Shown in pieces: positions 17,484 to 52,789 of a DNA stretch of 64,000 nucleotides. Source of the DNA: an uncultured Porphyromonadaceae bacterium. GTDB lineage: Bacteria; Bacteroidota; Bacteroidia; Bacteroidales; Muribaculaceae. Location: positions 1-64,000 of the forward strand of contig CAMWID010000006.1 of the NCBI GenBank assembly GCA_947174235.1, written 5' to 3'. Made by a program: the position numbers and the translations under genes. The notes beneath the pieces were generated by a model. The model made no database searches. It was not told the DNA's origin and saw only the letters and a list, made by a program, of their open reading frames with translations. How positions within the stretch are numbered: the stretch's first letter is position 1; every line of letters begins with the position of its first letter.

Positions 17484-20400
17484 ATGAAACTCATGCCGGC
17501 GATATTATCCATCATTATGCGGGTGGCTGTCTTGATTGCGGTCATTGGCAATGCTTTGTCTTTAAACGCCAGATATACCTCGACATATCATTTCAAACGG
17601 ATTGATGTGGAAGACGGACTCACCCAATGCATGGTCTATGCCGTCGCGCAGGACAGGCAGGGATTCCTGTGGTTCGGTACGCAGAACGGTCTCAACAGGT
17701 ATGACGGCGCTTCTCTGAAAACGTATAATCTTAACAAATATCTCCATAACGGATTGAACAATAATTCGATTTTTTCACTTTCGGAAGATTCCGAGGGGAA
17801 AATATGGATCGGTACTGAGAATGGGATTGTGATATTTGATCCTGAGTTTGAGACATTCCGGCAATTGAAATTTCGTGCGGGAAAGAAAGGTGAGGTCAAT
17901 GGAGTCGCGCGCACAATGGTTAAAGATTCAGAAGGAAATATGTGGACCGGGATTTCCGGGTGGGGCATTTTTAAATTCGGCGGCGATGGAGGCGCGCTAT
18001 ATTTCCCGCTTGCAGGATTTATGTCGGAAAGGGAACATATCACGTCATTATGTCTTGATTCCCGGGATAACGTTTATGCCGTTTTATCCGGAAGCCGAGT
18101 GTTGAGAATTGAATCGGGCAAGAAAGTGACGGTGGTTGCCGACATGCAGCGGGACTGTCCTGATGCTGTGGAAATGAATTGTATAAAGATTCTAAATGAC
18201 ACCACCATTCTTGCCGGGACTGTAAGCAGGGGGGTGGTCGCTGTGAATACCGTTTCGGGGAAATGGAATGTTCCTGACATTGCAAGGTCTCTTCCGCCTG
18301 ATGCCTTTGTAAGGTGTATAGAGACTGACAGGGAGGGGAAGTATTGGTTCGGAACCCAGCAGGGGTTGTATGTATACTCTCCCGACTCCGGAGGAATGAC
18401 GCATCTTGAGCATTCGTTGGTGGATCCTTATTCGTTGTCTGACAATGCAGTCCATAAAATTTTTATGGATCGGGAAGGAGGTATGTGGATAGGCACATAT
18501 TTTGGCGGAGTGAATTATTATTCCGGATCCGGTGGAGGCTTCGAGAAATTTTATCCGTCGTCTGTGTCAGGGTCTTTGTCAGGAAAATGCATCAGTGAAT
18601 TTTGTGAGGATTCCGACGGAAGAATCTGGGTGGGTACCGAAGATGCGGGATTGAATATAATGGGGAATGACGGAAAATTTTCTCGGGTCTTGATTAACGC
18701 GAATAATATTCATGCCCTTATGAATGACAATGGAAAAATATGGGCAGGTACATTTTCCAACGGTCTTTTCACTATCGATGTGCGCTCAGGTAAAGTGTGC
18801 GCTATCCCACATTCTTCGACTGGGAAGAAAGGAGATGACAACATCTATTCAATTTTCAAGGATTCGGGAGGCACGGTGTGGGTAGGGACAAGGACAGGAC
18901 TTGAGTATTACGACAGTATAAGGCAGGCGTTGACAGGATATGCCGGATTCATAACATCTCAGGTAAACGATATTGTTGAAAACAAAGGGGGGAAAATCTG
19001 GTTTGCCACGATAGGGCAGGGCATTTTTATTTACAGTAAGACAGACGATATCTGGCGCCATCTCGGTAGCGTCTCGGGAAATAACCCTGCTGCAGGAGAG
19101 AAGGTGATAAGCCTGCTCGTTGGAGAGGACGACAGGATATGGGCGGGAACAAAAGGTGCCGGAGTGGTGGTACTTGATCAGGCGGGCGAAATCGTCAGAG
19201 AGTATTCTATGGGTAACGGGCTTCCCGACGACGTGGTCTATAAATTGATAAAAGATCCTGACGGAGGTATATGGGGAAGTTCCAACAACGGTCTTTTCAG
19301 AATCGACCCTTCCTCGGATATTGTCAGGACTTATTCGTATTCCGACGGTCTTCCGGGTGACCAGTTCAACTATAAATCGGGTTTTATCGACAGTGAGTGC
19401 AATATTTATTTCGGAGGTGTCAAAGGCTTTGTACGGTTCCGCCATGACCATCTGGTGGATGCGGTGGGGGTTCCGAACCTGGTATTCGGCAGTTTCAAGG
19501 TAGGAAATGAGGAAATATCCGCAGGAGGAGGTTCCGGAATACTTCGCCGTTCCATCAACTATTCAAAAGAGATATCGTTACCTTTCGACAAGTCTGCCTT
19601 TACGATCAGCTTCGGAGCCGTAAATTATGCCTCTCCCCACAGGGTCAGATATGAATACCGGCTTGCGGGATGGGACAAAGACTGGATAGAGACAGGCGAC
19701 ACGCGCCACGCCACGTATTCCAGCCTGCCTCCCGGAAAATATGATTTTCAGGTAAGGATTTCCGACGTATATGGAATGTGGGGAGCCGCAACCCGTCAGA
19801 TACGGATTATTATAACGCCTCCCTTTTATATGACCGGCTGGGCATACGCGGCATATGTGGTGATTTCAGTATCGCTGGTGTATATTTTTGTCGCACGTTA
19901 CAGGCGCAGGATCAGGAAAAGGGAGAGTGATGAGATTTCAAGGCTGCAACGTAATTATGAAAAAGAAGTTTATGATATGAAGATAAATTTCTTCACCAAT
20001 ATCACTCATGAGCTCAGAACACCTCTCAGCCTGATAAAGATACCTGTGGATGAACTTCTTAAAAACACACCTGATTCCGACAGCAACTATGGCAACATAT
20101 CAATCATAAAAAGAAACACCGAGCGGCTGCTGACACTCGTCAACCAGCTGCTTGATTTCCGTAAGGCGGAAGCGGCGGGTATGAGACTCAATTTTGTATC
20201 TGCCGACATATGCGGACTTCTGCGGCATGTGGCTGGAAGATTCATGCCGTCATTGCAGTTGAAAGGGATAGCGTTGGAAATCAACGCGCCTTCCGTATTA
20301 AACGCCCATGTGGATATCGAGGCGTTCACTAAAGTGATCAGCAATATTCTCTGGAACGCACTCAAACATGCCGATACATATGTCTCGATCGATATGGCGG

Positions 20401-21482
20401 AGGGATGTGGGGATGTCAGTATCTCGATATCCAATGACGGAGAACTTATCCCCGGCAATAAATTGTCGACAATATTCGAGCCATTTGTGAAGGTGGATGA
20501 AAACAGTGAGGGCTCGGGTATCGGTCTGGCTCTTGTCAGGAAACTTGTCGAGGCGCACAGGGGTGAGATTTCTGTCTGTCAGGATGATGGTGTGGTGAGG
20601 TTTACGGTCACTCTCCCTCTTTGCCAGCAATATGTGATGGATATAAGTCAGGATGCCGGGATGTCTGACAATGTAGAGAATTATGAGATAAATCTGCCGT
20701 CCGGGAAAAACGCCACGACTGTCCTGATAGTGGAAGACAATGACGATATGCTCACCTTGATGTCGAACCAGCTGCGGAGGCAGTTCAATGTGATTGCCGC
20801 GCGGAACGGGGAGGAGGCTGTGGCATGTCTGGAAAACAGTTATGTCGACATGCTTGTAAGCGATGTCATGATGCCGGGTATGAACGGAATGGAACTATGC
20901 CGGTATGTGAAAGGAAATGTCAGATATTCCCATATCCCTGTGTTGCTTTTGACCGCAAACACGGATCAAGGAAAGCGCATGGAGGGGTTGGAATATGGAG
21001 CGGATGAATATATCATAAAACCATATTCCCTTGATTTCCTGAAAGCGCGTATATCCAATCTTGTGGAGAACAGGAGGCGAATCATAGGAATGTATAAGAA
21101 CTCTCCGGATATACCGATAGATGCGATTGCTGAAAATGAGGCGAATGCGGCGTTTATGTCGGAATTGATACGCCACATATCAGAAAATTTGGATAATGAG
21201 GGTTTGAATGTGGACTTTCTTGCAGAAAAGATGAATGTCAGCCGTGCCACCCTTTACAGAAAGATAAAGGGGACATCAGATCAGTCTCCGAATGATTTCA
21301 TACGTCTCGTGCGTTTGAAGAAAGCCGCCGTGTTGCTTCGTGACAAAAATCTAAGGATAAATGAAATTTCGGATATGTGCGGATTCAGTTCTCCGTCCTA
21401 TTTCACGAAATGCTTCTTCCGGCAGTTCGGTAAAAATCCTAAAGAATATCAGAATGACAGGATCATCCGGACGGACGAATAA
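17484..21482 (+). CDS. hybrid two-component system regulator (HTCS)
   Basis: 1332 aa; Reg_prop propeller repeats, Y_Y_Y, HisKA 'NITHELRTPLSLI', HATPase, REC 'DMLVSDVMMPGMNGMEL', AraC HTH 'SRATLYRKIKGTSDQSPNDFIR'. Confidence 0.95.
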   Translation: MKLMPAILSIIMRVAVLIAVIGNALSLNARYTSTYHFKRIDVEDGLTQCMVYAVAQDRQGFLWFGTQNGLNRYDGASLKTYNLNKYLHNGLNNNSIFSLSEDSEGKIWIGTENGIVIFDPEFETFRQLKFRAGKKGEVNGVARTMVKDSEGNMWTGISGWGIFKFGGDGGALYFPLAGFMSEREHITSLCLDSRDNVYAVLSGSRVLRIESGKKVTVVADMQRDCPDAVEMNCIKILNDTTILAGTVSRGVVAVNTVSGKWNVPDIARSLPPDAFVRCIETDREGKYWFGTQQGLYVYSPDSGGMTHLEHSLVDPYSLSDNAVHKIFMDREGGMWIGTYFGGVNYYSGSGGGFEKFYPSSVSGSLSGKCISEFCEDSDGRIWVGTEDAGLNIMGNDGKFSRVLINANNIHALMNDNGKIWAGTFSNGLFTIDVRSGKVCAIPHSSTGKKGDDNIYSIFKDSGGTVWVGTRTGLEYYDSIRQALTGYAGFITSQVNDIVENKGGKIWFATIGQGIFIYSKTDDIWRHLGSVSGNNPAAGEKVISLLVGEDDRIWAGTKGAGVVVLDQAGEIVREYSMGNGLPDDVVYKLIKDPDGGIWGSSNNGLFRIDPSSDIVRTYSYSDGLPGDQFNYKSGFIDSECNIYFGGVKGFVRFRHDHLVDAVGVPNLVFGSFKVGNEEISAGGGSGILRRSINYSKEISLPFDKSAFTISFGAVNYASPHRVRYEYRLAGWDKDWIETGDTRHATYSSLPPGKYDFQVRISDVYGMWGAATRQIRIIITPPFYMTGWAYAAYVVISVSLVYIFVARYRRRIRKRESDEISRLQRNYEKEVYDMKINFFTNITHELRTPLSLIKIPVDELLKNTPDSDSNYGNISIIKRNTERLLTLVNQLLDFRKAEAAGMRLNFVSADICGLLRHVAGRFMPSLQLKGIALEINAPSVLNAHVDIEAFTKVISNILWNALKHADTYVSIDMAEGCGDVSISISNDGELIPGNKLSTIFEPFVKVDENSEGSGIGLALVRKLVEAHRGEISVCQDDGVVRFTVTLPLCQQYVMDISQDAGMSDNVENYEINLPSGKNATTVLIVEDNDDMLTLMSNQLRRQFNVIAARNGEEAVACLENSYVDMLVSDVMMPGMNGMELCRYVKGNVRYSHIPVLLLTANTDQGKRMEGLEYGADEYIIKPYSLDFLKARISNLVENRRRIIGMYKNSPDIPIDAIAENEANAAFMSELIRHISENLDNEGLNVDFLAEKMNVSRATLYRKIKGTSDQSPNDFIRLVRLKKAAVLLRDKNLRINEISDMCGFSSPSYFTKCFFRQFGKNPKEYQNDRIIRTDE

Positions 21483-34644: not shown

Positions 34645-34807
34645 TCTGAAAAAGGTTGTAAATTGTTTGATGCAAAATTAGTAACTGACGGGAAAACAAT
34701 TGTATGTCTTAATGACAACTGTGTACGTGTGGCGGCATGTGCCGCGAATGTATACAAAACTGGCGGTGACGGATACACGGTTATTCCGTGTTTCGTCACC
34801 GCCGGGT

Positions 34808-37800
34808 TCAGAGTTCGGCATCTTTCTCCCTGTTGGCGGTGCGGTATTCTTTGGGAGTAGTGTTGAATCTTTTTGAAAATTCCTTATAGAAATGTGACCG
34901 GTTGGTGAATCCGCAGCGGTATATTATCTCCTGCACCGTGAGGGAGGTGGTGAGAAGAAGGCGTGCCGCATAGTTGATACGGTGGTTCTTGATGAAGTCA
35001 TTTGGAGAGACTTCCCCGATCTCCTTGAATTTGCGGTAAAGGTTGCGGCTGCTCGTCTTGAGGTGCAACGCTATCTGTTCTGCGGAAAGGTCGTTGTCGT
35101 CTATATGAGAGTCAATGAAGTCTGTCACCTTGGCGATGAAATCCTTTTCCTCGCGGTGCATGAGTTTCCCTCCGCTGAATTCGAAAGTGCTGGCAGACGT
35201 GTTGTAATATTCTTTCAGATGTTCCCGGTTTTCAAGCAGTCTCTTCACGACGGCTTTGAGATAGCTTATGCTGAACGGTTTGCCGATATATGCGTCAGCA
35301 CCGGCTTCGATTCCTTTGATTTTTTCCTCATTGCTTGTCTTGGCGGAAAGCAGCACAAGCGGAATATGAAGCGTATGGCGGTTCCCCTTTATCTGCCGGG
35401 CAAACTCCGTGCCGTCGGTGCCGGGCATCATGATGTCGCTTATTATGAGATCCGGCGGTGTTTCCTTTAATATAGTCAGTCCTTCATCAGCATTCTCGGC
35501 AGTGATCACGTTGTATTGTGTCAGGCTGTCGCGCAGCAGGGTAAGAATCTCTTTGTTGTCGTCAAGCACAAGGATGGAGTAGCGTCGCGTCTCCTCTTTT
35601 CCGTCTACATTTCTTCGTTCTTTCCGTGAAGGGGACGAATCTGTGTCAGAGACGGGATGTGCCGCTTCTGATTCGTGAAACGCGGCTGACGGTTCAGTAT
35701 CCGGGGTGTCGGTCGGGGTGAGCTGCGGAAGAACTACAATGAACTCTGCGAAATTGCCTACCTCGCTTTCGATGGAGATGGTGCCGTGAAGCATCTCCAC
35801 CATACTATGGCATATCGCCATGCCGAGTCCGTTGCGGCTTGAAATTCCTTTTATCGCATTCTGTTCCACATTGTCAAGAACCGTGTATCGGTTGAAAATG
35901 CGGTTCTTGTCTTCATCGCGGACACCCTTGCCGGTATTGTAGACGGTGATGCGTAGGCGTCCGTCTGCCTCTTCCGCCCCCACTTTTATGATACCGCCGG
36001 GAGACGTATACTTGAAAGCGTTTGAGATAAGGTTGTTGAGAATCTTCTTAAGGCAGCTGAAATCGGAATTCCAGGTCAGTCCGGGTTTTATTTCATTGAT
36101 GAAATTGATATTGTTTCTTTCAGCGAGTTCCGTGAACGAGTCGAAAGTCTCGTTGCACAGATCGCTTACCCCGACTTTCCTTATCTTGACAGCCTTGTGT
36201 CCTGTCTCGATGCGTCGGAAGTCTATAAGTTCCTGGATAAGATTGTTGAGTCGTTCTGCGTTTGACCGTATCAGCCCTACATATTTGCGTATGTAGTCGT
36301 CCGAACCCGGATATTCGAGAATGCGTTCGCAAGGACCGTAGATAAGTGTGAGAGGAGTGCAGAACTCATGGGTGATATTGGTAAAGAAACGGAGTTTCTC
36401 TTCATATACCTCCTCTTTGTGTGCCTGTTCAAGCCGCATCATCTGTTTCTCCTGCTTCTCTTTCTGTCTGCGCAGATAGAAATATAATAGGGCTCCCGCG
36501 ATCGAGAGAACAATCAAAAGATATATCGCTTTGGCTATTCCCGACAGGTACCATGGTGCCTTTACGGTTATGTTGACTATATATGTATCGCTTTCCACCC
36601 CTGTGGCACGGTTAATGTATTTTACTTTCAGTCGGTATGATCCATGGTTCATTTCATTGAAAGAGATAGTCGGGCTTGTGCCGTTGCTGATCCATTCCTT
36701 GCCGTCGAGGGTATAATAATATGTATAATTGTCGGCGTTGATGAAGTCGGGGGCGACGAGGGTAAGTGAAAAATGGTTTTGGTTGTGCTCAAATACCAGA
36801 TGATGTCTGTCGGCTGAACTGTCAAGGTGGTCGTTAAGCGGCACTTCCTTGCCGGAAACTTTCAACTTAAGGAGCGACAGCCGTGGTGCAAACGGTTTCG
36901 GCACTTTATAAGTGTCGTGACGGTTGACAAGCACGATGCCGTTGATTCCGCCGAATATCAGGGTGTTGCCGGTATTGAAGCTCGCCCCGTCGCTGAATTC
37001 GGTCACATTTATACCGAAATTCTTGCCATAAGTCTGAGATTCATTGTTTTCCGGATTAAATCTGACAATGCCGTTGTTGGTGGTCACCCATATTTTATTG
37101 TCGTTTCCGGGTACTATTTCGTGTATGGTGTTGTTGTTGAACCCATATTCCTGACCGTGGAAATATTGCTCGTCATCTGCCGACGCCTTTACCAGACCGC
37201 TTCCCGTACCGAGCCAGAAAGTGTCTCCCTTTTTGAAGGCGTCAAACACGTCGTTCACCCCGTTGACACCGAAATTATTCTTCAGCGGGATGTTGGTGAG
37301 ACGGTCATTCTCAATACGGAACATACCTTGCCCTCGGTTACAGAAAAAGAGGTTACCGTCGTTGTCAGTCACGATTGAGAAAAACTGGTTTGAGGAGAAT
37401 GCCCCGTTGTCAAGGGAATACTTCTTTACATCCGACAGACGGGGATGACCAGGGTCGCCTGATATTCTGGCTTTCGCTACCCCCTGTCCGAGGGTACATA
37501 ACCATAAGGTAGAGTCGTTTATCTCAATGATTCCGTGTATGAACCTTATTTCGGGATCAAGATCAGCCTTATGAAGTTTCCCATCATTGTAATTATAGTA
37601 GTTCAGTCCTTCTTCGGTGGCTATCCACAGAATAGGGCGGCTGCTCTCGCTGAACGCGAAGACGGAATTATGGCGCAGTTCGCTGTCGGAGGATGTGTAC
37701 AGAGTCCCTTTGCCGATGGAGGAGGGGGGATAAAATTCGTTGAATCCTTCCACTTTGAGAAGTCCGTCACCTTTTGTGCCGAGCCACAGGTTATTATATC

Positions 37801-38854
37801 TGTCAAGGTGTATCGCTCTTACAGGATGTGAGATTTTGTTGTTGAACGCGTTGAAATCAAATGACCGGACGCTGTACAGGTCGTCCCAATAGGTGTAAAG
37901 CCCCTGACAGTCGGATCCAATCCAGACCACGTCTTGCTCAGGCGACTGCTCGAGGCAGAAGACCCCGACCTGTAGCCCGAGGTCTACGGGCTGAAATTCC
38001 CCGTGTTCGTTTTTTCCTACCCACAGCACTCCGTCCGTGCTGAAGGAGATGAAGAAATTCCCCTGATGGTCGTTCACGAGATTGGAAATCTTGCCTCGTT
38101 TCGACAGCTCGGAGGCGATATTGGTGATTTTACGTGCTTTGCCGTCAGAGAGTATCTCCGAGATATAACCTTCTCCGTCAATTATAAAAATCTTGTCATC
38201 CTGTATTTTTGCAAATATGACAGGAGTGTCGTTGATCCGTGAGACATCCAAGGATATTTCTGCCCCGTCAGCTCTGTTGGGAATGGCGGAGGAATATATT
38301 CCGCTGGTTGCTACCACCCATAAATAATTGCCTCTTATAGCTATGCGCTTGACGTCATCAAACGGTATGTCTATTTTTCCTGCCCGGGAGAATCCTGTAG
38401 GATTGCCGTTGTCCTGGCGCATAAGACATGAGTTTTCTTCAAGCACGAACAAGGTGCCCTCAGAATCCACGCACATCAGCTCTTGTCCGTTGAATTGCGG
38501 GAAAGTGGAGACGGTACGCGTGTTTGAATCTACAAGATCAAGACCGTGGTTTGTGAGAATCCACATTTTGCCGTTCCCTCCGTTGAATATTGTCTCTATG
38601 ATATTGCCGGAAAGGGTCTGTCCCGGAAATATGGATGTGAAAGGGTTGATCGACAGTCCGTCGGCAATGTTCACCCCGTCGCATGTCCCTATCCACAGGA
38701 ATCCGTTGTCATCGCGGCATAGCGAAAGGATCGCGCTGTTGGAAAGACCGTCAACATTGGAAGATTGACGCATGTTGTAAGGATATGCGGACTGTGATGC
38801 CGATGCTATGATGAAGATTATAAGAAGTAGTAGCGTCTGAATGCGGGAGATCAT
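34808..38854 (-). CDS. hybrid two-component system regulator (HTCS)
   Basis: ORF to 38992; start moved to MISRIQTLLLLIIFIIASASQSAYP. Propeller repeats, Y_Y_Y, HisKA 'NITHEFCTPLTLI', HATPase, REC 'PDLIISDIMMPGTDG', AraC HTH. Confidence 0.94.
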   Translation of the reverse strand: MISRIQTLLLLIIFIIASASQSAYPYNMRQSSNVDGLSNSAILSLCRDDNGFLWIGTCDGVNIADGLSINPFTSIFPGQTLSGNIIETIFNGGNGKMWILTNHGLDLVDSNTRTVSTFPQFNGQELMCVDSEGTLFVLEENSCLMRQDNGNPTGFSRAGKIDIPFDDVKRIAIRGNYLWVVATSGIYSSAIPNRADGAEISLDVSRINDTPVIFAKIQDDKIFIIDGEGYISEILSDGKARKITNIASELSKRGKISNLVNDHQGNFFISFSTDGVLWVGKNEHGEFQPVDLGLQVGVFCLEQSPEQDVVWIGSDCQGLYTYWDDLYSVRSFDFNAFNNKISHPVRAIHLDRYNNLWLGTKGDGLLKVEGFNEFYPPSSIGKGTLYTSSDSELRHNSVFAFSESSRPILWIATEEGLNYYNYNDGKLHKADLDPEIRFIHGIIEINDSTLWLCTLGQGVAKARISGDPGHPRLSDVKKYSLDNGAFSSNQFFSIVTDNDGNLFFCNRGQGMFRIENDRLTNIPLKNNFGVNGVNDVFDAFKKGDTFWLGTGSGLVKASADDEQYFHGQEYGFNNNTIHEIVPGNDNKIWVTTNNGIVRFNPENNESQTYGKNFGINVTEFSDGASFNTGNTLIFGGINGIVLVNRHDTYKVPKPFAPRLSLLKLKVSGKEVPLNDHLDSSADRHHLVFEHNQNHFSLTLVAPDFINADNYTYYYTLDGKEWISNGTSPTISFNEMNHGSYRLKVKYINRATGVESDTYIVNITVKAPWYLSGIAKAIYLLIVLSIAGALLYFYLRRQKEKQEKQMMRLEQAHKEEVYEEKLRFFTNITHEFCTPLTLIYGPCERILEYPGSDDYIRKYVGLIRSNAERLNNLIQELIDFRRIETGHKAVKIRKVGVSDLCNETFDSFTELAERNNINFINEIKPGLTWNSDFSCLKKILNNLISNAFKYTSPGGIIKVGAEEADGRLRITVYNTGKGVRDEDKNRIFNRYTVLDNVEQNAIKGISSRNGLGMAICHSMVEMLHGTISIESEVGNFAEFIVVLPQLTPTDTPDTEPSAAFHESEAAHPVSDTDSSPSRKERRNVDGKEETRRYSILVLDDNKEILTLLRDSLTQYNVITAENADEGLTILKETPPDLIISDIMMPGTDGTEFARQIKGNRHTLHIPLVLLSAKTSNEEKIKGIEAGADAYIGKPFSISYLKAVVKRLLENREHLKEYYNTSASTFEFSGGKLMHREEKDFIAKVTDFIDSHIDDNDLSAEQIALHLKTSSRNLYRKFKEIGEVSPNDFIKNHRINYAARLLLTTSLTVQEIIYRCGFTNRSHFYKEFSKRFNTTPKEYRTANREKDAEL

Positions 38855-39111
38855 GATTGTCTCGATTTCATTGTTAAGGTTAAGCAAAATCTGCGGCTCC
38901 GTTTCTGAAAGGCGCGGATTCCGGCGTTTTTGCCGGATCGCAGATTTATGATGCAAAATTAAATAAAAAAAAGAAAACTTAAAATCTCGCATCTGAGAGA
39001 GACCCTAATAAAATGTAACGGATTGCGCCAAAAATGTCCATATGGAGGAAATCCGGTGTCTGGAATATAGTTATGTCATAAACGGATACTAAAACAAATG
39101 AGGTATACACT

Positions 39112-39119
39112 TAATTTTG
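39112..39119 (+). promoter_or_regulatory. candidate -7 box for the DUF4965 gene
   Basis: TAATTTTG (TAnnTTTG) 26 nt upstream of the start. Confidence 0.45.
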
Positions 39120-43605: not shown

Positions 43606-43791
43606 TTGAATCTCCCGGAAAGCGCGATGGTATTCCCGGCTGCTGTATCTTTCCGGATTGATATTCCCATGGAAGCGCTCCCGTAAGATGGATCTTGTGT
43701 CTGTCAGAGTGCCAATAAATATGTATTTATTGTGTGATGCGATTGAATATCAATTAATTATGTATATTATACAGTCTTGATGATGTTTCCG

Positions 43792-43841
43792 ATTCTGCCA
43801 AATATGTATACAATTTTGAAAGTATACCCATTTGGCAGAAT
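43792..43841. promoter_or_regulatory. 20-bp imperfect inverted repeat, candidate regulator-binding site
   Basis: attctgccaaatatgtatac (43792-43811) - 10-nt spacer - gtatacccatttggcagaat (43822-43841); 18/20 complementary. Confidence 0.6.
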
Positions 43842-44120
43842 AGGGTTACATTTCCGCATGATTTTCTCACTTATTTTGCATCGTGAAATTTGTAAAGGAC
43901 CATGGAAAATATTTGCGGCTGTTCAATGGAAATCCTCAGATGCTTTCCGGGTCATGCAAAACATAGATAGACAGCAAGAATAGTTAATAGGTGAATATAG
44001 GTTAAATCAGGTTATTATTCAGGTTTTTTTTGACAAGTGAAAACTCTGAGGTAAAAAAGATTGTGACAAGGTTCAGACAACAACGACAATGAAATCTATA
44101 AATTATAAATACTAACTATC

Positions 44121-45947
44121 ATGAACTTATCCAGACTACTTAAAAACATCGGTCTCGCGTTCATTACCGGTTGCCTGGCATTCTCAGCCGCTTCATGCAG
44201 CGATGAAGAAGAGGGTCAGGGAGCCGTGGGGAATGGCACGGTTTCCGGTGTTGTCACCGATGAGCAGGCGCGTCCTGTTTCGGGCGTGACGGTATCAATG
44301 CCTGCGAACGGAATTTCCGCGACCACAGGCTCTGCCGGAGAATACTCTCTTTCCAATGTGCCCATGACTTCGGGCATCATCCTTTTCGAGAGAGACGGTT
44401 ATGAGACGGCTGCGGTAACGGTGGTTGCCAAGAAATTCACAGATGCCAAAGCCACGGTGAATGTCGAGCTCGTCTATGCCAACGCCATAATAAAAGGTGT
44501 GGTATATGATGCATCCAAAAACAATTCTCCCCTCGCGGGCGCGACTGTAAAGGTGAGCGATTTCCAGAGCACGGAGACGAATGCACAGGGAGAGTTTGAA
44601 CTCCGCAATCTTACCCTTAAAGATTACACGGTGACGTTCTCCTATCCCGGATTTAAAGACGTGACCAAGAATGTGGGCGTGGATGCCTTCGGAGAAGAGG
44701 GTGTCGTGATGTTGGAGGCTACCATGGGTGCTGATGAGGTGCTGAGAGGAAAGACCAAGTATCAGCTCGCAGAGGCTCAGAAATGGTATTACAACGAATA
44801 TCGTGGCGGTCGCAATGCCGAAAACTATCCTCACTGGGACTGGGCATGCAACTATATGTGTACGCTTGATTTCGTGGGTGACTATGAGGAGCAGAACGAG
44901 GGTACAACCCTCCGTATCCGCAACTCCTCCGACGACCAGCGCAACAATCCTGTCGACATGGAGATGTTTGATTCATATGTCTATGGTTCAAAACTTATCA
45001 CCGCAGACAACTTCCTTATGACGCTCGAGGCGCGCACTCACAGCGCATCGGACAACGCTCCCGCATATTTCGGTGTGCAGGTGGTAGACCTCAGTGAGGC
45101 TGAGCCTAAGGCAAAACTTATCGGTGGTGTGCGTACTCTCGCTTCTGAAGCTTACCACCAGATTGAAACTGACCTCAGCGAATATATAGGTAAAGAGGTG
45201 GTGATCGCTATCGGTACTTTCCGTGCGGAAAAGGGGGATTATTGGAAACAGTTCGTTATCCGTCGTATCGCCTTTACCGCAGAACCGATCTCCGGATTAT
45301 GGAACTGGCTCCCCGGTACGGAAGTTCCCGGTCTTGAAGGCTGGCACTTGACTCAGGAGATGGTTCGCTCAACGATGCCTAACCAGACAAGCTCATTCAC
45401 AGGTATCAGTCCTGTCAGCGGAAACCGCGACAACTATTTTGAGGCATACCGCTCATGGATCCCCGTGCATCATGTGGCTGCCGAATGGAGCTTCATGCCT
45501 TTGACAAAAGACCCGGAGGTATTCCCTTCCGAAGGATACCTTATCAAGACACGCGGAGGTCAGGACGTGAGCACAAAAGTGCCGGAATCTTATTTCTATT
45601 CCAAGTTCTCAATAGCTCCGGGTCATAACAAGTTTACTCTCAAGACACGTTGCTTCAGCTCTACAAATGCTACTTTCTTCAAAATTACTGCTATCACTAA
45701 TGATGGTGAAGTGACTCACTTGAGTCCGGTAAGCAACACGGCGACTTACGCAGAGGCTGCTGCCGACGGGTGCTGGAAGTTCATGCATGAGAACGGAGAT
45801 CCCGGAAATCCTGACGGATATTGTGAATTTGTCTACGACCTTTCCGGATTCGACGGGCAGGACGTGATGATCACGATCGGTGTCTTCAAGGGTGAGGCGA
45901 ACGGAGATGAAAACAAACTTCTGTTCTACTCAATCAGTCTTAATTGA
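44121..45947 (+). CDS. PUL lipoprotein with tandem carboxypeptidase-regulatory-like domains (putative surface glycan-binding protein)
   Basis: 608 aa; lipobox FSAASCSDEEEGQG; two domains 'GVVTDEQARPVSGVTVSMPANGISATTGSAGEYSLSNVPM' and 'GVVYDASKNNSPLAGATVKVSDFQSTETNAQGEFELRNL'. Confidence 0.75.
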   Translation: MNLSRLLKNIGLAFITGCLAFSAASCSDEEEGQGAVGNGTVSGVVTDEQARPVSGVTVSMPANGISATTGSAGEYSLSNVPMTSGIILFERDGYETAAVTVVAKKFTDAKATVNVELVYANAIIKGVVYDASKNNSPLAGATVKVSDFQSTETNAQGEFELRNLTLKDYTVTFSYPGFKDVTKNVGVDAFGEEGVVMLEATMGADEVLRGKTKYQLAEAQKWYYNEYRGGRNAENYPHWDWACNYMCTLDFVGDYEEQNEGTTLRIRNSSDDQRNNPVDMEMFDSYVYGSKLITADNFLMTLEARTHSASDNAPAYFGVQVVDLSEAEPKAKLIGGVRTLASEAYHQIETDLSEYIGKEVVIAIGTFRAEKGDYWKQFVIRRIAFTAEPISGLWNWLPGTEVPGLEGWHLTQEMVRSTMPNQTSSFTGISPVSGNRDNYFEAYRSWIPVHHVAAEWSFMPLTKDPEVFPSEGYLIKTRGGQDVSTKVPESYFYSKFSIAPGHNKFTLKTRCFSSTNATFFKITAITNDGEVTHLSPVSNTATYAEAAADGCWKFMHENGDPGNPDGYCEFVYDLSGFDGQDVMITIGVFKGEANGDENKLLFYSISLN

Positions 45948-45956
45948 GTTGTGAGT

Positions 45957-46010
45957 CTTTCAGCCGCGGACCGTGGTAATGACGTCTTCTCCGCAGCCTG
46001 CGGCTGAAAG
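45957..46010 (+). other. intercistronic hairpin
   Basis: 11-bp perfect inverted repeat ctttcagccgc (45957-45967) / gcggctgaaag (46000-46010); no T-run. Confidence 0.6.
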
Positions 46011-46059
46011 CTTAAATCTCACTGCTCAGAACAATAATTCACAACTCAAACCTACAATT

Positions 46060-47529
46060 ATGAAGTCAAATATTCTGGAACGAGGATTATATACATGTGC
46101 CGCATGTCTTCTCGCTTTAGGGACTGTGTCCTGCAAAGGGGATGAACCGGGATCCGCCGGAACAAACCCCGGAGAACCCGGAGATCCTGTGGCGGATGTG
46201 TCTCTCACCAACACTAAGCGCGCGATAGAAATGATCGACGCAGCCATCGAAAATTATTTCGAAGGTACCGGTATGGCTATGTCCCGTTATTATAATCCCT
46301 ATAACGGTCAGAAATCAAGCGAACTTGGAAGCGTATGGATGTACACCTCTTCTATAGAGGCGGTCAATTCGGTGCTTAAAAGCCTTAAGGCGCAGAAAGC
46401 CGCCGGTAAACCGTCGCTTTATGACGCGAATTTCTCCCGTTATACGAAATTGCTCTCGCGCCTGGTGGACAATCTTGATTTTTATGCGGGCACATATACC
46501 CTCACGTCCTATACCGGCACCAATACCTGGACTGTCTATGGCGTGAACCGGGGAAGTGGAAAAGGGGCGGCGCAGGTCGACGGTATCCTCAATGTCTATG
46601 ACGACCAGATGTGGATCGTGAGGGAACTTCTCGAAGCCTACGAAGCAACCGGAGAGGAGGGATACCTCAGCAAAGCGGAATATCTGACGGCATACGTGCT
46701 TGACGGCTGGGACTGCACCCTCGACGAGAACGGCAACCAGCACGGCGGCATAACATGGGGACCCGGATATGTCACCAAGCATTCATGTTCCAACGGTCCG
46801 ATGGTGGCTCCTCTCGTGAAGCTTGCCGGAATCTATAAAGGAAAGCCGGACATGATCACTTATGGAGTTATCAACCCTGACAACACGCGCTCTAAAGCCA
46901 CAAGTCAGAAAGCGGATTATTATCTTGAGATGGCAGCCGCTGTCTATGACTATCAGATGTCGCATCTTCTCAATCCCTCGACAGGGGTGTTTGACGATAT
47001 GATGGGGGGCGACGACAACGGCGGACAGATCAGATACGAGACTGTAGATGGCGAGACTTATCGTGCCTATGTGCATCTGCGCGACAGGGTAGGTACCGCC
47101 TATTCCTACAATACGGGAACAATGATTTCCGGGGCTGCGGCGTTGTACGGCGCGACATCCGATTCCCGCTATCTCACCGATCTCCGCGACCTTTGCGACA
47201 AAAGCTTCCCTTTCTTCGCGAAGGCAGCCGACGGCAAAGAGGGATGTTACACGTTTGCGATCACCGGCTTCAACAACTGGTTCAACAACGTGCTTGAAAG
47301 AAGTTATGTCGACGCTGTCAAGGCATATCCGGGAGCGGGGGCTTATGCCGAGGCTTTCCAGGCAAACCTTGATTACGCTTACGGCAACTTCCTTTACAAT
47401 CATATGCTTCCACCCAATCTTCTGGTTGGCTGGAATTCCGACAGAGGCAGAAACAATATGGAGGCGATGTTCACATTCGCTTTCGCTGCGGAATATGCCT
47501 CTCTTGCAGAATATCAATTAACAAAATAA
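46060..47529 (+). CDS. GH76 family alpha-1,6-mannanase-like lipoprotein
   Basis: ORF 45973..47529; start moved to MKSNILERGLYTCAACLLALGTVSCKGDE. 'NVYDDQMWIVRELLEAYEATGEEGYL' carries the GH76 double-Asp motif; 'GGITWGPGY', 'YSYNTGTMISGAAALY'. Confidence 0.9.
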   Translation: MKSNILERGLYTCAACLLALGTVSCKGDEPGSAGTNPGEPGDPVADVSLTNTKRAIEMIDAAIENYFEGTGMAMSRYYNPYNGQKSSELGSVWMYTSSIEAVNSVLKSLKAQKAAGKPSLYDANFSRYTKLLSRLVDNLDFYAGTYTLTSYTGTNTWTVYGVNRGSGKGAAQVDGILNVYDDQMWIVRELLEAYEATGEEGYLSKAEYLTAYVLDGWDCTLDENGNQHGGITWGPGYVTKHSCSNGPMVAPLVKLAGIYKGKPDMITYGVINPDNTRSKATSQKADYYLEMAAAVYDYQMSHLLNPSTGVFDDMMGGDDNGGQIRYETVDGETYRAYVHLRDRVGTAYSYNTGTMISGAAALYGATSDSRYLTDLRDLCDKSFPFFAKAADGKEGCYTFAITGFNNWFNNVLERSYVDAVKAYPGAGAYAEAFQANLDYAYGNFLYNHMLPPNLLVGWNSDRGRNNMEAMFTFAFAAEYASLAEYQLTK

Positions 47530-47539
47530 CTACTACATC

Positions 47540-50500
47540 ATGACATCTATGAAGACTCCCGGCGGTCTTGCGCGTTTTCTCGTCTGCATGGCGATCGCGT
47601 TTATGGCTGCCCTCAATCCGGCGGGTGCCTTTGCGCAAGGCACGGTAACCGTCACAGGTCAGGTAACAGATGAACAGAACGAACCTCTTATCGGCGCCAC
47701 CGTAATGGTGAAAGGCTCATCTGTCGGTACGGCTACCGATATGGACGGTTCCTATTCTCTGACAGCCCCGAAGAATGCCGTTCTGGTATTTTCTTATGTG
47801 GGTTATAACTCAATCGAAGAGAAACTTAACGGAAGGACAACTGTCAATGTCAGAATGAGCGCTGACACTCAGCTTATGGACGAGGTTGTCGTGGTCGGTT
47901 ACGGCACACAGCGCCGAGGCTCCGTGACAGGCGCCGTGGCAAGTGTCAAGGGTTCCGAGATGCTTCAGACCAAGAGCGAGAACCCTCAGAACATGCTCAC
48001 CGGCCGTGTTCCGGGTCTGCGCGTATGGCAGAAGAGTTCTGAGCCGGGCACATATTCCAACAATATGGACGTGCGTGGTCTCGGCGCCCCGCTTGTGGTG
48101 ATCGACGGAGTTCCCCGCACGGTTGAAGATTTCCAGCGACTTAACGCTACCGACATTCAGGATGTGTCTGTACTTAAGGACGCGTCGGCAGCCATCTATG
48201 GCGTGCGTGCCGCGAACGGTGTGCTTCTCGTCACAACCAAGGGAGGCAACGCCGGGAAAGTGAATGTGACCTACAGCGGTTCCTACACTATCCAGAAGCC
48301 CAACAAGATGCCTGAGCTGGCAAGCGCGTACGACGCCATGACCATCTACAATGAGCAGAAATGGAACAACATCAACGGCGGTTCTATCGGTTTCAGTCAG
48401 GCTGATTTCGAGGCTCTCGCCAACGGCACACGCCGAGTGTCTGACTGGAACGACCTCGTGTTCTCCAACACCGCTCCCCAGACCCAGCATGATGTCAGCA
48501 TTTCCGGTGGTAACGACCGCAACCAGTATTATGTGAGCTTCGGCTATTTCTATCAGGAAGGTCTCTTCAAGAGCGGTGACCTCAACTATGATAAATATAA
48601 CGTGCGTGCCAACATCACGTCCGAAATTGTGAAGGGTCTCAAGTTCTATGCCAATCTCGCAGGGATGGCAGACTCCCGCAACACTCCCTACACATCTTCT
48701 GTAGATATCATCCGCAACTATTGGAAGCAAGGCGTTCTTTTCCCGGCTTATGCCGACCCCGAGAACACGATGCTGAACTATGAAGGTCTTGATCTTGAGC
48801 AGAACACCGTGGCTATGATGACTTCAGATATCAGCGGTCATCGCAAATACCGTCAGAAAACTTTCGAATCTTCTGCATATCTTAACTTTGACTTCGGTGC
48901 ATATGTGCCGGCGTTGAAAGGGCTTGAGGCTAAGGCGCTCGTAAGCTATGACTACCGTGTGGACGACAACGAGATCTACCGTAAGGAGTATTATCAATAT
49001 GCTTACGATCCTCTCACCGACAGCTATAACCAGAAGATCTACAACAGCAGCTCGCCGAGCAACCTGCGCCGTGAGTATTACTCAAAATCGCAGTTCCTGT
49101 ATCAGTTCCTTCTGAACTACAACCGTGAGTTCAACGAACTCCACAACGTAGGCGCCACTTTCGGCTGGGAGGGACAACGCCGCACAGGCGACAACTTCTA
49201 TGCAGTGCGTGATCTTGCGTTCTCCAATCCCTATCTGCTTGTCGGTGTGACAGAAGGTCAGATCGGAGCCATGGACGGAGGCAGCCTTTATGAATATACC
49301 AACAACGCACTCATCGGTCGTCTCAATTATTCATTCGCCGACCGTTATCTTCTCGAAGGTCAGTTCCGTTACGACGGTTCTTCCAAATTCGCCAAAGGTC
49401 ACCGCTGGGGTTTCTTCCCTTCGGTTTCAGCAGGCTGGAGAATTTCAGAAGAAGCTTTCTTCCGAAACACTGAGGCGCTTGATTTCATCAACAACCTGAA
49501 AGTCCGTGCCAGCTATGGTATGCTCGGTGACGACAGCGGCGTAAACTATGACTGGGCTATGGGCTATACTTATCCTTCAGGTATTCCTGCCGATAATGGT
49601 AACTACAACGGTTATTCTCCGGGTTATGTGTTCAACGGGCAGTATATTTCTGCAGCATCCCCGATGGCACTTCCGAACCTCGCAATTTCATGGTACAAGT
49701 CAAAGACATTTGACGTAGGTGTGGATTTCGATATGCGCAACGGTCTTTTCGGATTCTCTTTCGACTATTTCCACCGCAAGCGTACAGGTCTTTACGAACG
49801 CAACAATGGCGCGTTGCCTACAGTGGTGGGAGCCACAGCCCCACGTGAGAATATCAACAGCGACTCTCATATGGGTATGGAGCTTGAACTCCGTCATTCA
49901 AACCGTGTGGGAGAAGTGACATATAATCTGCGTGGAATGGTGACGATCACCCGCAACAAATATCTCTATGCCGCCAACAAGGGTCCTTGGGCAAACTCAT
50001 ATGACCGTTGGAAGAACGATAACCTGAACAACCGTTATCAGGGCGTTCAGTTCGGTTATACCTCCGCAGGCAGATACCATAACTGGAACGACATTTGGAA
50101 TTACGCCGGTTATCAGGAGAAAGATGTTCTCCCCGGCGACTACAAGTATGAAGACTGGAACGGCGACGGCGAGATCAACGGACTTGACGAGCATCCTTTC
50201 GCTTTCGACCAGACTCCCTGGATGAACTATTCGCTCAATATAGGCGTAAACTGGCGGGACTTCGATTTCTCCATGCTCTGGCAGGGTTCGGCGCTTGGTT
50301 CAATGGAATACAAGGAGCCGCTGTACTCTATCTGGGGCGACATGGGCGGCGGTATCCTCCAACAGTACACTGACCGTTGGCATCCGGTGAATCCTACAGC
50401 TGATCCCTACGATCCCGCTACTGAATGGGTGTCCGGATATTATGCATACACCGGTCGTTATCCGAAGTCTAATTCATCTTTCAACCGTGTAAGCACCGAT

Positions 50501-50707
50501 TATCTGCGTCTGAAGAGCATCGAACTCGGCTACACTCTACCTAAGAGGATCACACGCGAGACAAGTCTCCGTCTCTATTTCAACGCATACAACCTTCTTA
50601 CTTTCACAAAGGTGAAATTCGTTGACCCGGAACATCCGGACGATGATCTCGGACGTATGTATCCTCTCAACAAGACCTTCACGTTCGGTCTTACTTTCTC
50701 CTATTAA
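47540..50707 (+). CDS. SusC/RagA-family TonB-linked outer membrane protein
   Basis: 1055 aa; 'GQVTDEQNEPLIGATVMVKGSSVGTATDMDGSYSL', 'LMDEVVVVGYGTQRRGSVTGAVASVKG', C-terminal beta-barrel ending FGLTFSY. Confidence 0.96.
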   Translation: MTSMKTPGGLARFLVCMAIAFMAALNPAGAFAQGTVTVTGQVTDEQNEPLIGATVMVKGSSVGTATDMDGSYSLTAPKNAVLVFSYVGYNSIEEKLNGRTTVNVRMSADTQLMDEVVVVGYGTQRRGSVTGAVASVKGSEMLQTKSENPQNMLTGRVPGLRVWQKSSEPGTYSNNMDVRGLGAPLVVIDGVPRTVEDFQRLNATDIQDVSVLKDASAAIYGVRAANGVLLVTTKGGNAGKVNVTYSGSYTIQKPNKMPELASAYDAMTIYNEQKWNNINGGSIGFSQADFEALANGTRRVSDWNDLVFSNTAPQTQHDVSISGGNDRNQYYVSFGYFYQEGLFKSGDLNYDKYNVRANITSEIVKGLKFYANLAGMADSRNTPYTSSVDIIRNYWKQGVLFPAYADPENTMLNYEGLDLEQNTVAMMTSDISGHRKYRQKTFESSAYLNFDFGAYVPALKGLEAKALVSYDYRVDDNEIYRKEYYQYAYDPLTDSYNQKIYNSSSPSNLRREYYSKSQFLYQFLLNYNREFNELHNVGATFGWEGQRRTGDNFYAVRDLAFSNPYLLVGVTEGQIGAMDGGSLYEYTNNALIGRLNYSFADRYLLEGQFRYDGSSKFAKGHRWGFFPSVSAGWRISEEAFFRNTEALDFINNLKVRASYGMLGDDSGVNYDWAMGYTYPSGIPADNGNYNGYSPGYVFNGQYISAASPMALPNLAISWYKSKTFDVGVDFDMRNGLFGFSFDYFHRKRTGLYERNNGALPTVVGATAPRENINSDSHMGMELELRHSNRVGEVTYNLRGMVTITRNKYLYAANKGPWANSYDRWKNDNLNNRYQGVQFGYTSAGRYHNWNDIWNYAGYQEKDVLPGDYKYEDWNGDGEINGLDEHPFAFDQTPWMNYSLNIGVNWRDFDFSMLWQGSALGSMEYKEPLYSIWGDMGGGILQQYTDRWHPVNPTADPYDPATEWVSGYYAYTGRYPKSNSSFNRVSTDYLRLKSIELGYTLPKRITRETSLRLYFNAYNLLTFTKVKFVDPEHPDDDLGRMYPLNKTFTFGLTFSY

Positions 50708-50728
50708 TCCAATAATTGACCATACAAC

Positions 50729-52789
50729 ATGAAAAAGATATTATTTTCAGCTCTTCTCGGCGCCTGTCTGCTGACTTCCTGCCAGGATATGGATATACCA
50801 CCCAAGAATATCGTTACATCTGACGATCTTCTTTCGACCGAATCCGGTATGGACATCTACATGGCGCGCATGTATTCTACGATGCCTTTCGAGGATTTCA
50901 AGTATCTCGCCGAGCGCGGTCTTAACAGCTACAACGGCTGGCTTGCAGGTTTCGGTTTTGACGGTACGGGCGACGCGGTAAACCGCGACGGCTATTGCCG
51001 CGCGTTCACCGGTGAGAACGAGGCTTATTGGGGGAATGCGTTCACTCTTCTCCGCGATGCCAACTTCCTTATCGAAAATCTTCCAAATTATAAAGGAAAT
51101 TATCCAGAAATCACATACAATGATTATCTTGGCGAGGCTTATTTCGTAAGGGCATACGTGTTTTATGCACTCGCAAAACGTTACGGCGGTATCCCCTTGG
51201 TGACAAGAGTGATAAGCTATCCAGCTTCGAGCGACGAACTTGAGGTGCCCCGTTCAAGCGAGGAGGAAACCTGGAATCAGATCTGCTCCGATTTTGATAT
51301 GGCTGCCCAGCTGATGATGCCGAAAAGCCCCAAAAGAGGGTATGCCAACAAGTATGTGGCATTGGCTGTGAAATCTCAGGCTATGCTTTACGCCGGTTCC
51401 GTTGCTAAATATAACGAGACTGTCTCCGGCCGTCTCACAGGTCTCGGACAGAAGACGGGCGTGCGTGTGATGGGTTTTGATCAGGCAACTGCAGCCGAGG
51501 CTTCTAAACGCTATTTCACCGAGGCATACAAGGCTGCACGCGAAGTTATGGAAAACGGCGGTTATAGTCTCTATATGAAGAAATGGGCGGAAGGCGACAG
51601 AAGTGCAATGCGTCAGAACATGATTGACATGATCTCAGACACCGACAGCCCTGAGAATATCTGGATCCGTGAGTATATCTATCCCACTACAACTCACTCA
51701 TTCGATGCCTACAACGCACCTTATGTATTCCGTTCTCCTTTGAGCAGTGCGGTTTGTCCGACTGCCGATTTCGTGGAGCTTTTCGAAGGCTTCGAACGTT
51801 ATCCCGACGGAACTCTTAAGGTGACCACCGGCAATTCAAATACAGAGGGTACATATATAATGTATGACAATGTCGGCGACTTCTATAAGAATGCGGAGCC
51901 GCGTCTCCTTTCTTACCTTATCGCTCCGGGCGACCAGTTCAAGGGTCAGACAATGGAGATATATGCCGGCGTATATACCGGAACCACACCTGTCAAACCC
52001 CTGATGAGAGATTATTCCTATCAGGCTCAGGGCGACAACTATCAGAATCTGGATATAGCGCAAGGTGACAACCGAACTCTTTACATGACCCCCGATCCCA
52101 ACAATCAGACCATTGTGACGCTCCCTGACGGTTCGAAGATGAATGCCGCGGGTGCCAACGGACCTTTCTATAATTACAATGAGTCGGCGATGACAGGTCT
52201 TTTGGGAAGGAAATGGCTTAAGGACGATCCCTCGTTCACAGCACGTGAAGGCAACAGCGACCAGCACTATATACTCGTGCGTTATGCGGAGGTTCTTTTG
52301 AATGCGGCTGAGGCGGCTGTTGAGCTTTCAATCGCGGGTGCTGCTTCTCCCGACGGTTCCGACATGCTTGGTGTGGCGACAGATGCAATCAATGATATCC
52401 GTCGCCGTGCAGGCGCGACGCTTCTCGCAAGTAAGCTTACCGGCAGCAACGAGAGCCGTAACGAGGTGCGTAAGGAACGTCGCAAGGAGACTGCTTTCGA
52501 GACAGGTACAAAATGGGATCTCCGTCGCTGGCGTGTGAACGACTATGACAACCGCGACGGTTTCTGGGGCGAAGAACGCGACAAAGATAAATTCAGCTCT
52601 AATTCCCACTACCGTTTCCGCGGCATCTATCCTTTCTATTCAGCCACCGATAAGAAATGGTTCTTTGATGTGAAGTTTGAGTGTCTCGCCCACAAGCAAT
52701 TCGAATATAATCCTATTGATTATTATTTTGGAATCCCCGGCAACGAAGTGGTGAAGAGCAAGGTAATAGATCAGCAGCCCAACCGTTAA
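50729..52789 (+). CDS. SusD/RagB-family lipoprotein
   Basis: 686 aa; lipobox LLTSCQDMD; 'GEAYFVRAYVFYALAKRYGGIPLVTRV', 'RYAEVLLNAAEAAVEL', 'ERRKETAFETGTKWDLRRWR'. Confidence 0.95.
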   Translation: MKKILFSALLGACLLTSCQDMDIPPKNIVTSDDLLSTESGMDIYMARMYSTMPFEDFKYLAERGLNSYNGWLAGFGFDGTGDAVNRDGYCRAFTGENEAYWGNAFTLLRDANFLIENLPNYKGNYPEITYNDYLGEAYFVRAYVFYALAKRYGGIPLVTRVISYPASSDELEVPRSSEEETWNQICSDFDMAAQLMMPKSPKRGYANKYVALAVKSQAMLYAGSVAKYNETVSGRLTGLGQKTGVRVMGFDQATAAEASKRYFTEAYKAAREVMENGGYSLYMKKWAEGDRSAMRQNMIDMISDTDSPENIWIREYIYPTTTHSFDAYNAPYVFRSPLSSAVCPTADFVELFEGFERYPDGTLKVTTGNSNTEGTYIMYDNVGDFYKNAEPRLLSYLIAPGDQFKGQTMEIYAGVYTGTTPVKPLMRDYSYQAQGDNYQNLDIAQGDNRTLYMTPDPNNQTIVTLPDGSKMNAAGANGPFYNYNESAMTGLLGRKWLKDDPSFTAREGNSDQHYILVRYAEVLLNAAEAAVELSIAGAASPDGSDMLGVATDAINDIRRRAGATLLASKLTGSNESRNEVRKERRKETAFETGTKWDLRRWRVNDYDNRDGFWGEERDKDKFSSNSHYRFRGIYPFYSATDKKWFFDVKFECLAHKQFEYNPIDYYFGIPGNEVVKSKVIDQQPNR

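Follow-up and report, generated by a model that had tools for sequence, protein, structure and literature searches.

An inverted repeat upstream of a Muribaculaceae mannan operon as the probable core of two head-to-head HTCS operators

An inverted repeat at 43792-43841 of the 64,000-nucleotide stretch of DNA analysed here (the window), from an uncultured member of the Muribaculaceae, is very probably the DNA docking site at which a membrane-spanning sugar sensor of this gut bacterium activates genes for the digestion of yeast-mannan-type glycans. We consider it likely that this repeat is the core of a double HTCS operator, in which two dimer sites lie head to head as a bidirectional activator element; because the two docking sites would stand face to face, one element could drive genes on both of its sides. 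The operon predicted to be driven in the window (44121-52789, plus strand) encodes, according to Pfam, a lipoprotein with a carboxypeptidase regulatory domain, a GH76 enzyme, SusC and SusD. It is preceded on the same strand by a gene for a GH2 enzyme, and the surrounding region also contains a GtaA-like gene, a GH125 gene and an HTCS gene.

The repeat reads ATTCTGCCAAATATGTATAC-N10-GTATACCCATTTGGCAGAAT with 18 of 20 positions paired, and rechecking the sequence bore out the preliminary description in its position and pairing. Its core is GCCAAATnTGTATACA-N12-TACnnATTTGGC, with a span of 40 bp. Among 60 dinucleotide-shuffled versions of the 64-kb window, just one held any comparable arm pair (20-bp arms, at least 18 matches, loop of 3-20). 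The window itself contains five repeats of this kind, one of which is the repeat at 43792-43841; the other four mostly have the appearance of terminators at gene ends. The repeat studied here lies away from gene ends and lacks a T run, for which reason a terminator was rejected. An inverton or transposon end was also rejected, because the spacer is 10 bp long and the promoter lies at a constant distance. A short direct repeat inside the palindrome (GTATAC...TTTG, 16 bp) was likewise discarded, as it is not kept in orthologs. Upstream of the element, at 43709-43733, there is a further short palindrome, CAATAAATATGTATTTATTG, with TGC before it, which shows no conservation in the alignment.

Stronger evidence than the shuffle statistics comes from conservation, which indicates that the repeat is functional. 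Orthologs of the lipoprotein are found in Muribaculaceae and beyond. Five orthologous upstream regions show little alignment outside the two arms, a TTACA flank and a -7-like box, the arms being much better kept than the surrounding DNA; the left arm core retains 15-17 of 17 bases in four of these orthologs and 12 of 17 in the fifth. The core, with its exact 40-bp span, is found before the orthologous operon of six related genomes of Muribaculaceae. A pattern built from the arms and run against a sample of the family has matches in six genomes of the genus, and G141 is a seventh genome with the repeat, at the orthologous place. A cultured relative, Isolate-037 (L041), also has the site. The genome of the window contains a second copy (G000:C7:3642-3681) at a GH92 promoter, between a GH92 gene and a divergent unnamed gene; a matching copy is present in G022, and in G155 a copy is located between divergent GH76 and GH92 genes. 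The 40-bp span is invariant at ten sites, as are TAC and GGC of the right arm core, and a matrix scan allowing spans of 36 to 45 bp yielded strong sites at 40 bp only. The preliminary description would have given up its reading had orthologous PULs lacked the element, which is in fact conserved there. Its proposed search with the half-site TTTGGCAGAAT fared less well: the four other exact matches all lack a partner arm at the fixed span, and such a search alone is misleading because the sites have only GCCAAA...TGTATAC in common and do not share the outer AGAAT.

This conservation is narrow in range. Upstream regions of lipoprotein genes from other genera (Bacteroides muris, B. rodentium, Sphingobacterium, Echinicola and others) lack the motif, and a scan of 393 genomes at the level of the order gave, beyond the genome of the window, just one weak match (G587). 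Two matches within the family, in another genus (G208 and G307), have unlike flanks and were set aside as probably due to chance or unrelated. In G070, a second, tandem half-element (TTGGCAGAATTGGACACAT ... CTTATTTTG; L013:1120-1200) lies upstream of the main one and perhaps belongs to a second promoter.

Each arm of the palindrome is the inner half of a direct repeat of 21-22 bp, TGTnTCC-N6-GCCAAAnnTGTATAC. On the left side, the outer half CTTGATGATGTTTCC (43776-43790, plus strand) carries TGTTTCC exactly 21 bp ahead of the same bases in the inner half GCCAAATATGTATAC (43797-43811, plus strand), which is the left arm core and has the top score of the 15-mer matrix; the ATGTTTCC of this outer half is retained in G022 and G141. 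On the right side the arrangement is reversed, with the inner half GCCAAATGGGTATAC (43822-43836, minus strand), the right arm core, giving the second best score in the window, and the outer half GCGGAAATGTAACCC (43843-43857, minus strand) adjoining the promoter in a 22-bp register. The likeness between outer and inner halves resides mainly in the TGT core.

We scanned the loci with the 15-mer arm matrix, which was partly trained on the sites tested, and recovered single half-sites at other promoters. TGT is present in the outer (21-bp) register, usually as TGTnTCC, at 24 of 39 inner half-site matches, compared with 1 of 12 for the reversed matrix. In the window, a single direct repeat with the 21-bp register precedes GH125 (outer half AATAACCGTGTATCC, 34771-34785; inner half GCCAGTTTTGTATAC, 34750-34764; both minus strand), and the same site is found in G141. 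A second lies in the intergenic region between the HTCS and the GtaA-like gene and serves as the candidate operator of the latter (outer half TAATAAAATGTAACG, 39006-39020; inner half GCCAAAAATGTCCAT, 39027-39041; both plus strand), with counterparts in G022, G141 and G061; at the GtaA promoter of G061, the direct repeat is nearly perfect, GACAAATTTGTATCGG-ATATT-GCCAAAATTGTATTGG (16+5+16 bp). Operators of this type, with a period of about 21 bp, precede operons for SusC/SusD or enzymes within the same PUL (lipoprotein-GH76-SusCD, GH125, GtaA-like, GH92), and the GH76, GH92 and GH125 targets are alpha-mannan genes. Because of the TGTnTCC outer registers and the single direct repeats elsewhere, the inverted repeat is best read as two head-to-head operators, the palindrome resulting from two direct-repeat sites that face each other. 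The initial suggestion of a site for a dimeric regulator therefore appears sound as far as binding of a regulator is concerned, but not as to one palindromic dimer site, since each arm is the inner half of a direct repeat.

The distance from this element to the promoter is fixed. A putative -7 box, TTATTTTG (43871-43878, plus strand), previously noted as weak, is conserved at the same distance in all orthologs as TTAnTTTG or TAACTTTG. It differs by one base from TAnnTTTG, the -7 consensus of the Bacteroidota sigma-ABfr promoter class (PMC7366714); TAACTTTG occurs in G016, and TAATTTTG at the GH125 and GtaA-like promoters (34673-34680, minus strand, and 39112-39119, plus strand, respectively). 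No -33 TTTG is present at the expected place. Counted from the first base of the left arm core, TTTG of the -7 box lies 77 or 78 bp downstream at 10 of 10 sites (78 bp in the window), and in divergent cases a mirrored TAnnTTTA is found at 77/78 bp on the left side, in 5 of 5. Where there is no leftward gene, as in the window, this mirrored box is missing. The promoter-proximal ACA lies 27 bp from TTTG at 8 of 10 sites despite the 1-bp variation in arm distance, and the base missing from the shorter spacing falls between the arm and this ACA. At the single repeats of GH125 and the GtaA-like gene, the -7 box lies a further helical turn from the site, TTTG being at +88 and +89, respectively. Across all loci, the TTTG distances cluster at 77-78, 86-89 and 97-98 bp, roughly one helical turn apart, with 82, 91, 118 and 122 bp falling off this ladder; at single-repeat promoters they are mostly 77, 86-89 or 97-98 bp.

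The downstream gene has its start codon at 44121, so that use of this -7 box would give a leader of about 235 nt, consistent with the length predicted earlier. Within this 5' leader, a cluster of (T)AGGTTA repeats is present at 43988-44026; the cluster, though not its exact position, is kept in related leaders including those of L013 and G155. A second leader block, AGGTAAAAAAGATTGT-N6-GGTTCA at 44048-44076, is conserved in most ortholog leaders and is possibly an RNA element; it also occurs shortly upstream of another SusC-like gene in the same genome (L159).

The predicted regulator is the HTCS encoded within the locus at 34808-38992 (minus strand), which according to Pfam comprises a periplasmic Reg_prop/Y_Y_Y sensor, HisKA, HATPase, a receiver and an AraC-type HTH. 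Orthologs are present in 13 of 111 genomes of the genus, including 7 of 7 genomes with the inverted repeat, and are encoded about 5-12 kb from the site in the window, G022, G120, G061 and G155. The direct repeat, at up to 2 mismatches, is found in 10 of 13 genus genomes with the HTCS ortholog and in 2 of 98 without it (Fisher 3e-10, uncorrected for relatedness), a P value that overstates the case, since these are related genomes that also contributed to the pattern; the HTCS gene and the site may, in these related genomes, simply have been inherited together. At up to 3 mismatches there are 50 matches in the 13 HTCS genomes and 36 in the other 98, the latter number being near the level of the reversed control, so that sites exceed background only where an ortholog of this HTCS is encoded. 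No site of this type lies in the flank of the other HTCS encoded in the window (17484-21482). Co-occurrence, linkage and the presence of the same site type within the PUL all argue for the HTCS of PUL B, one of the two regulators named in the preliminary description.

The AraC-type HTH is well conserved among the HTCS orthologs. The HTCS of the window has LHIP, and several orthologs MHIP, at the position where most Bacteroides HTCSs have S/CHIP, a motif that has been tied to receiver-HTH inhibition (PMC11253607). The HTCS frame of G022 (L105:3864-8039) is interrupted by stops close to the N terminus and by a further stop within the HTH region, at residue ~1371; these may reflect a different start together with a truncated C terminus, or an assembly error.

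The same observations bear on other interpretations of the repeat. A single symmetric dimer of the HTCS or another AraC-type protein might occupy the palindrome itself, in the manner of RhaS/RhaR, with the flanks being only promoter sequence. No blocks are better conserved than the two 16-bp arms, and their 40-bp span is constant. However, the same half-site is used in single, non-palindromic direct repeats at other promoters of the regulon, the outer halves are conserved at a fixed register, and published predicted HTCS motifs are direct repeats in 16 of 16 cases (PMC3878776), which together make a single dimer unlikely. Less probable still is a different transcription factor, such as the catabolite regulator that was the other early candidate. 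Palindromic sites are typical of Crp-like proteins and many repressors, but the published Bacteroides Crp-like (BT4338) operator TATGTTnTAnAACATA (wwwTATGTTnTAnAACATAwww; PMC3878776) has no match near the repeat, even with up to 3 mismatches, and the site type is restricted both to genomes with the HTCS and to mannan genes, unlike what would be expected of a global regulator.

We give the least credence, and very little of it, to a role in RNA, whether as a hairpin in an upstream or antisense transcript or as a terminator. The sequence folds as a stem and its unshifted pairing outscores slid controls, but a symmetric DNA site predicts the same counts, and the signal comes mostly from invariant positions, not from compensatory changes. 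Pair 14/37, in the middle of the stem, is disrupted in 8 of 10 sequences and the innermost pair in 7 of 10; moreover, the repeat lies upstream of the conserved -7 box with no T run after it. A search of Rfam returned nothing.

In the double-operator model, a dimer of the AraC-type HTCS would bind the 21-bp direct repeat through its outer TGTnTCC and inner GCCAAAnnTGTATAC halves, and two such repeats placed head to head, with their inner halves facing, would generate the 20-bp palindrome. A mannan-derived oligosaccharide sensed in the periplasm would lead to phosphorylation of the receiver, the AraC domains of the phosphorylated HTCS would fill both direct repeats, and RNA polymerase would be brought to the -7 box, which lies at a distance of 78 bp from the left inner half and of 27 bp from the outer half next to the promoter. 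We infer this binding, activation, ligand and stoichiometry from sequence comparison. In G120 and G061, GH92 and the lipoprotein operon flank one element; in the window genome, G022 and G141, the element precedes the lipoprotein gene and no gene is driven to its left; the first two of these genomes have GH92 elsewhere, with an element of its own. The ancestral layout may therefore have been a single element driving GH92 leftward and the lipoprotein-GH76-SusCD operon rightward, with the leftward promoter having decayed in the window genome. Duplication of one bidirectional operator when the genes became separated would be the simplest account.

Bidirectional use alone offers no reason for keeping both arms where there is no left-facing gene. 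Since genomes that have lost the left gene keep the reversed right half, this half is probably still of importance to the rightward promoter. It is conceivable, though we hold this only tentatively, that the element is a rigid bidirectional switch (core of 40 bp, 78 bp to each -7 box), in which two membrane-tethered HTCS dimers form one assembly of fixed geometry and both are needed even for transcription in one direction.

The proposed layout shares features with known AraC-type systems. At araI1-I2, AraC recognizes two half-sites about 21 bp apart, the proximal of which adjoins the core promoter, as is the case here; the element differs in having a mirror-image second pair, a membrane-bound hybrid kinase as regulator and a promoter of the Bacteroidota -7/-33 class. 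The RhaS/RhaR operators at the divergent rha promoters also place inverted AraC-type half-sites between divergent genes, and the inverted pair there is believed to be occupied by a single dimer, whereas here every arm has its own direct-repeat partner. The Crp-like BT4338 palindrome (PMC3878776) is similar in being a palindromic element upstream of sugar genes but differs in sequence and length. HTCS_Man-1/2/3 of Bacteroides thetaiotaomicron (BT2628, BT3302 and BT3786; PMC3878776) are AraC-type HTCSs encoded within alpha-mannan PULs, for which a direct repeat of two 16-bp sites with a 5-bp spacer has been predicted, the same 16+5+16 layout as at the G061 GtaA promoter. The published motifs are direct repeats only, whereas in the element described here two direct repeats face each other across a 40-bp core span and form a palindrome. 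In the literature searched, head-to-head HTCS direct repeats are not described, and a Muribaculaceae mannan HTCS was not found.

HTCSs are the main glycan sensors of Bacteroidota, and their operators are known mostly from predicted Bacteroides direct repeats. For a little-studied genus of Muribaculaceae, our analysis supplies a precise operator consensus, its geometry relative to the -7 box, a small regulon and a spacing rule based on helical turns, and this precision makes binding and activation directly testable. A rigid switch, if true, would represent an operator layout new to the family and reveal how a membrane-anchored regulator contacts polymerase. The head-to-head layout also indicates how two mannan operons can share one element, which appears to be copied when its partner gene moves.
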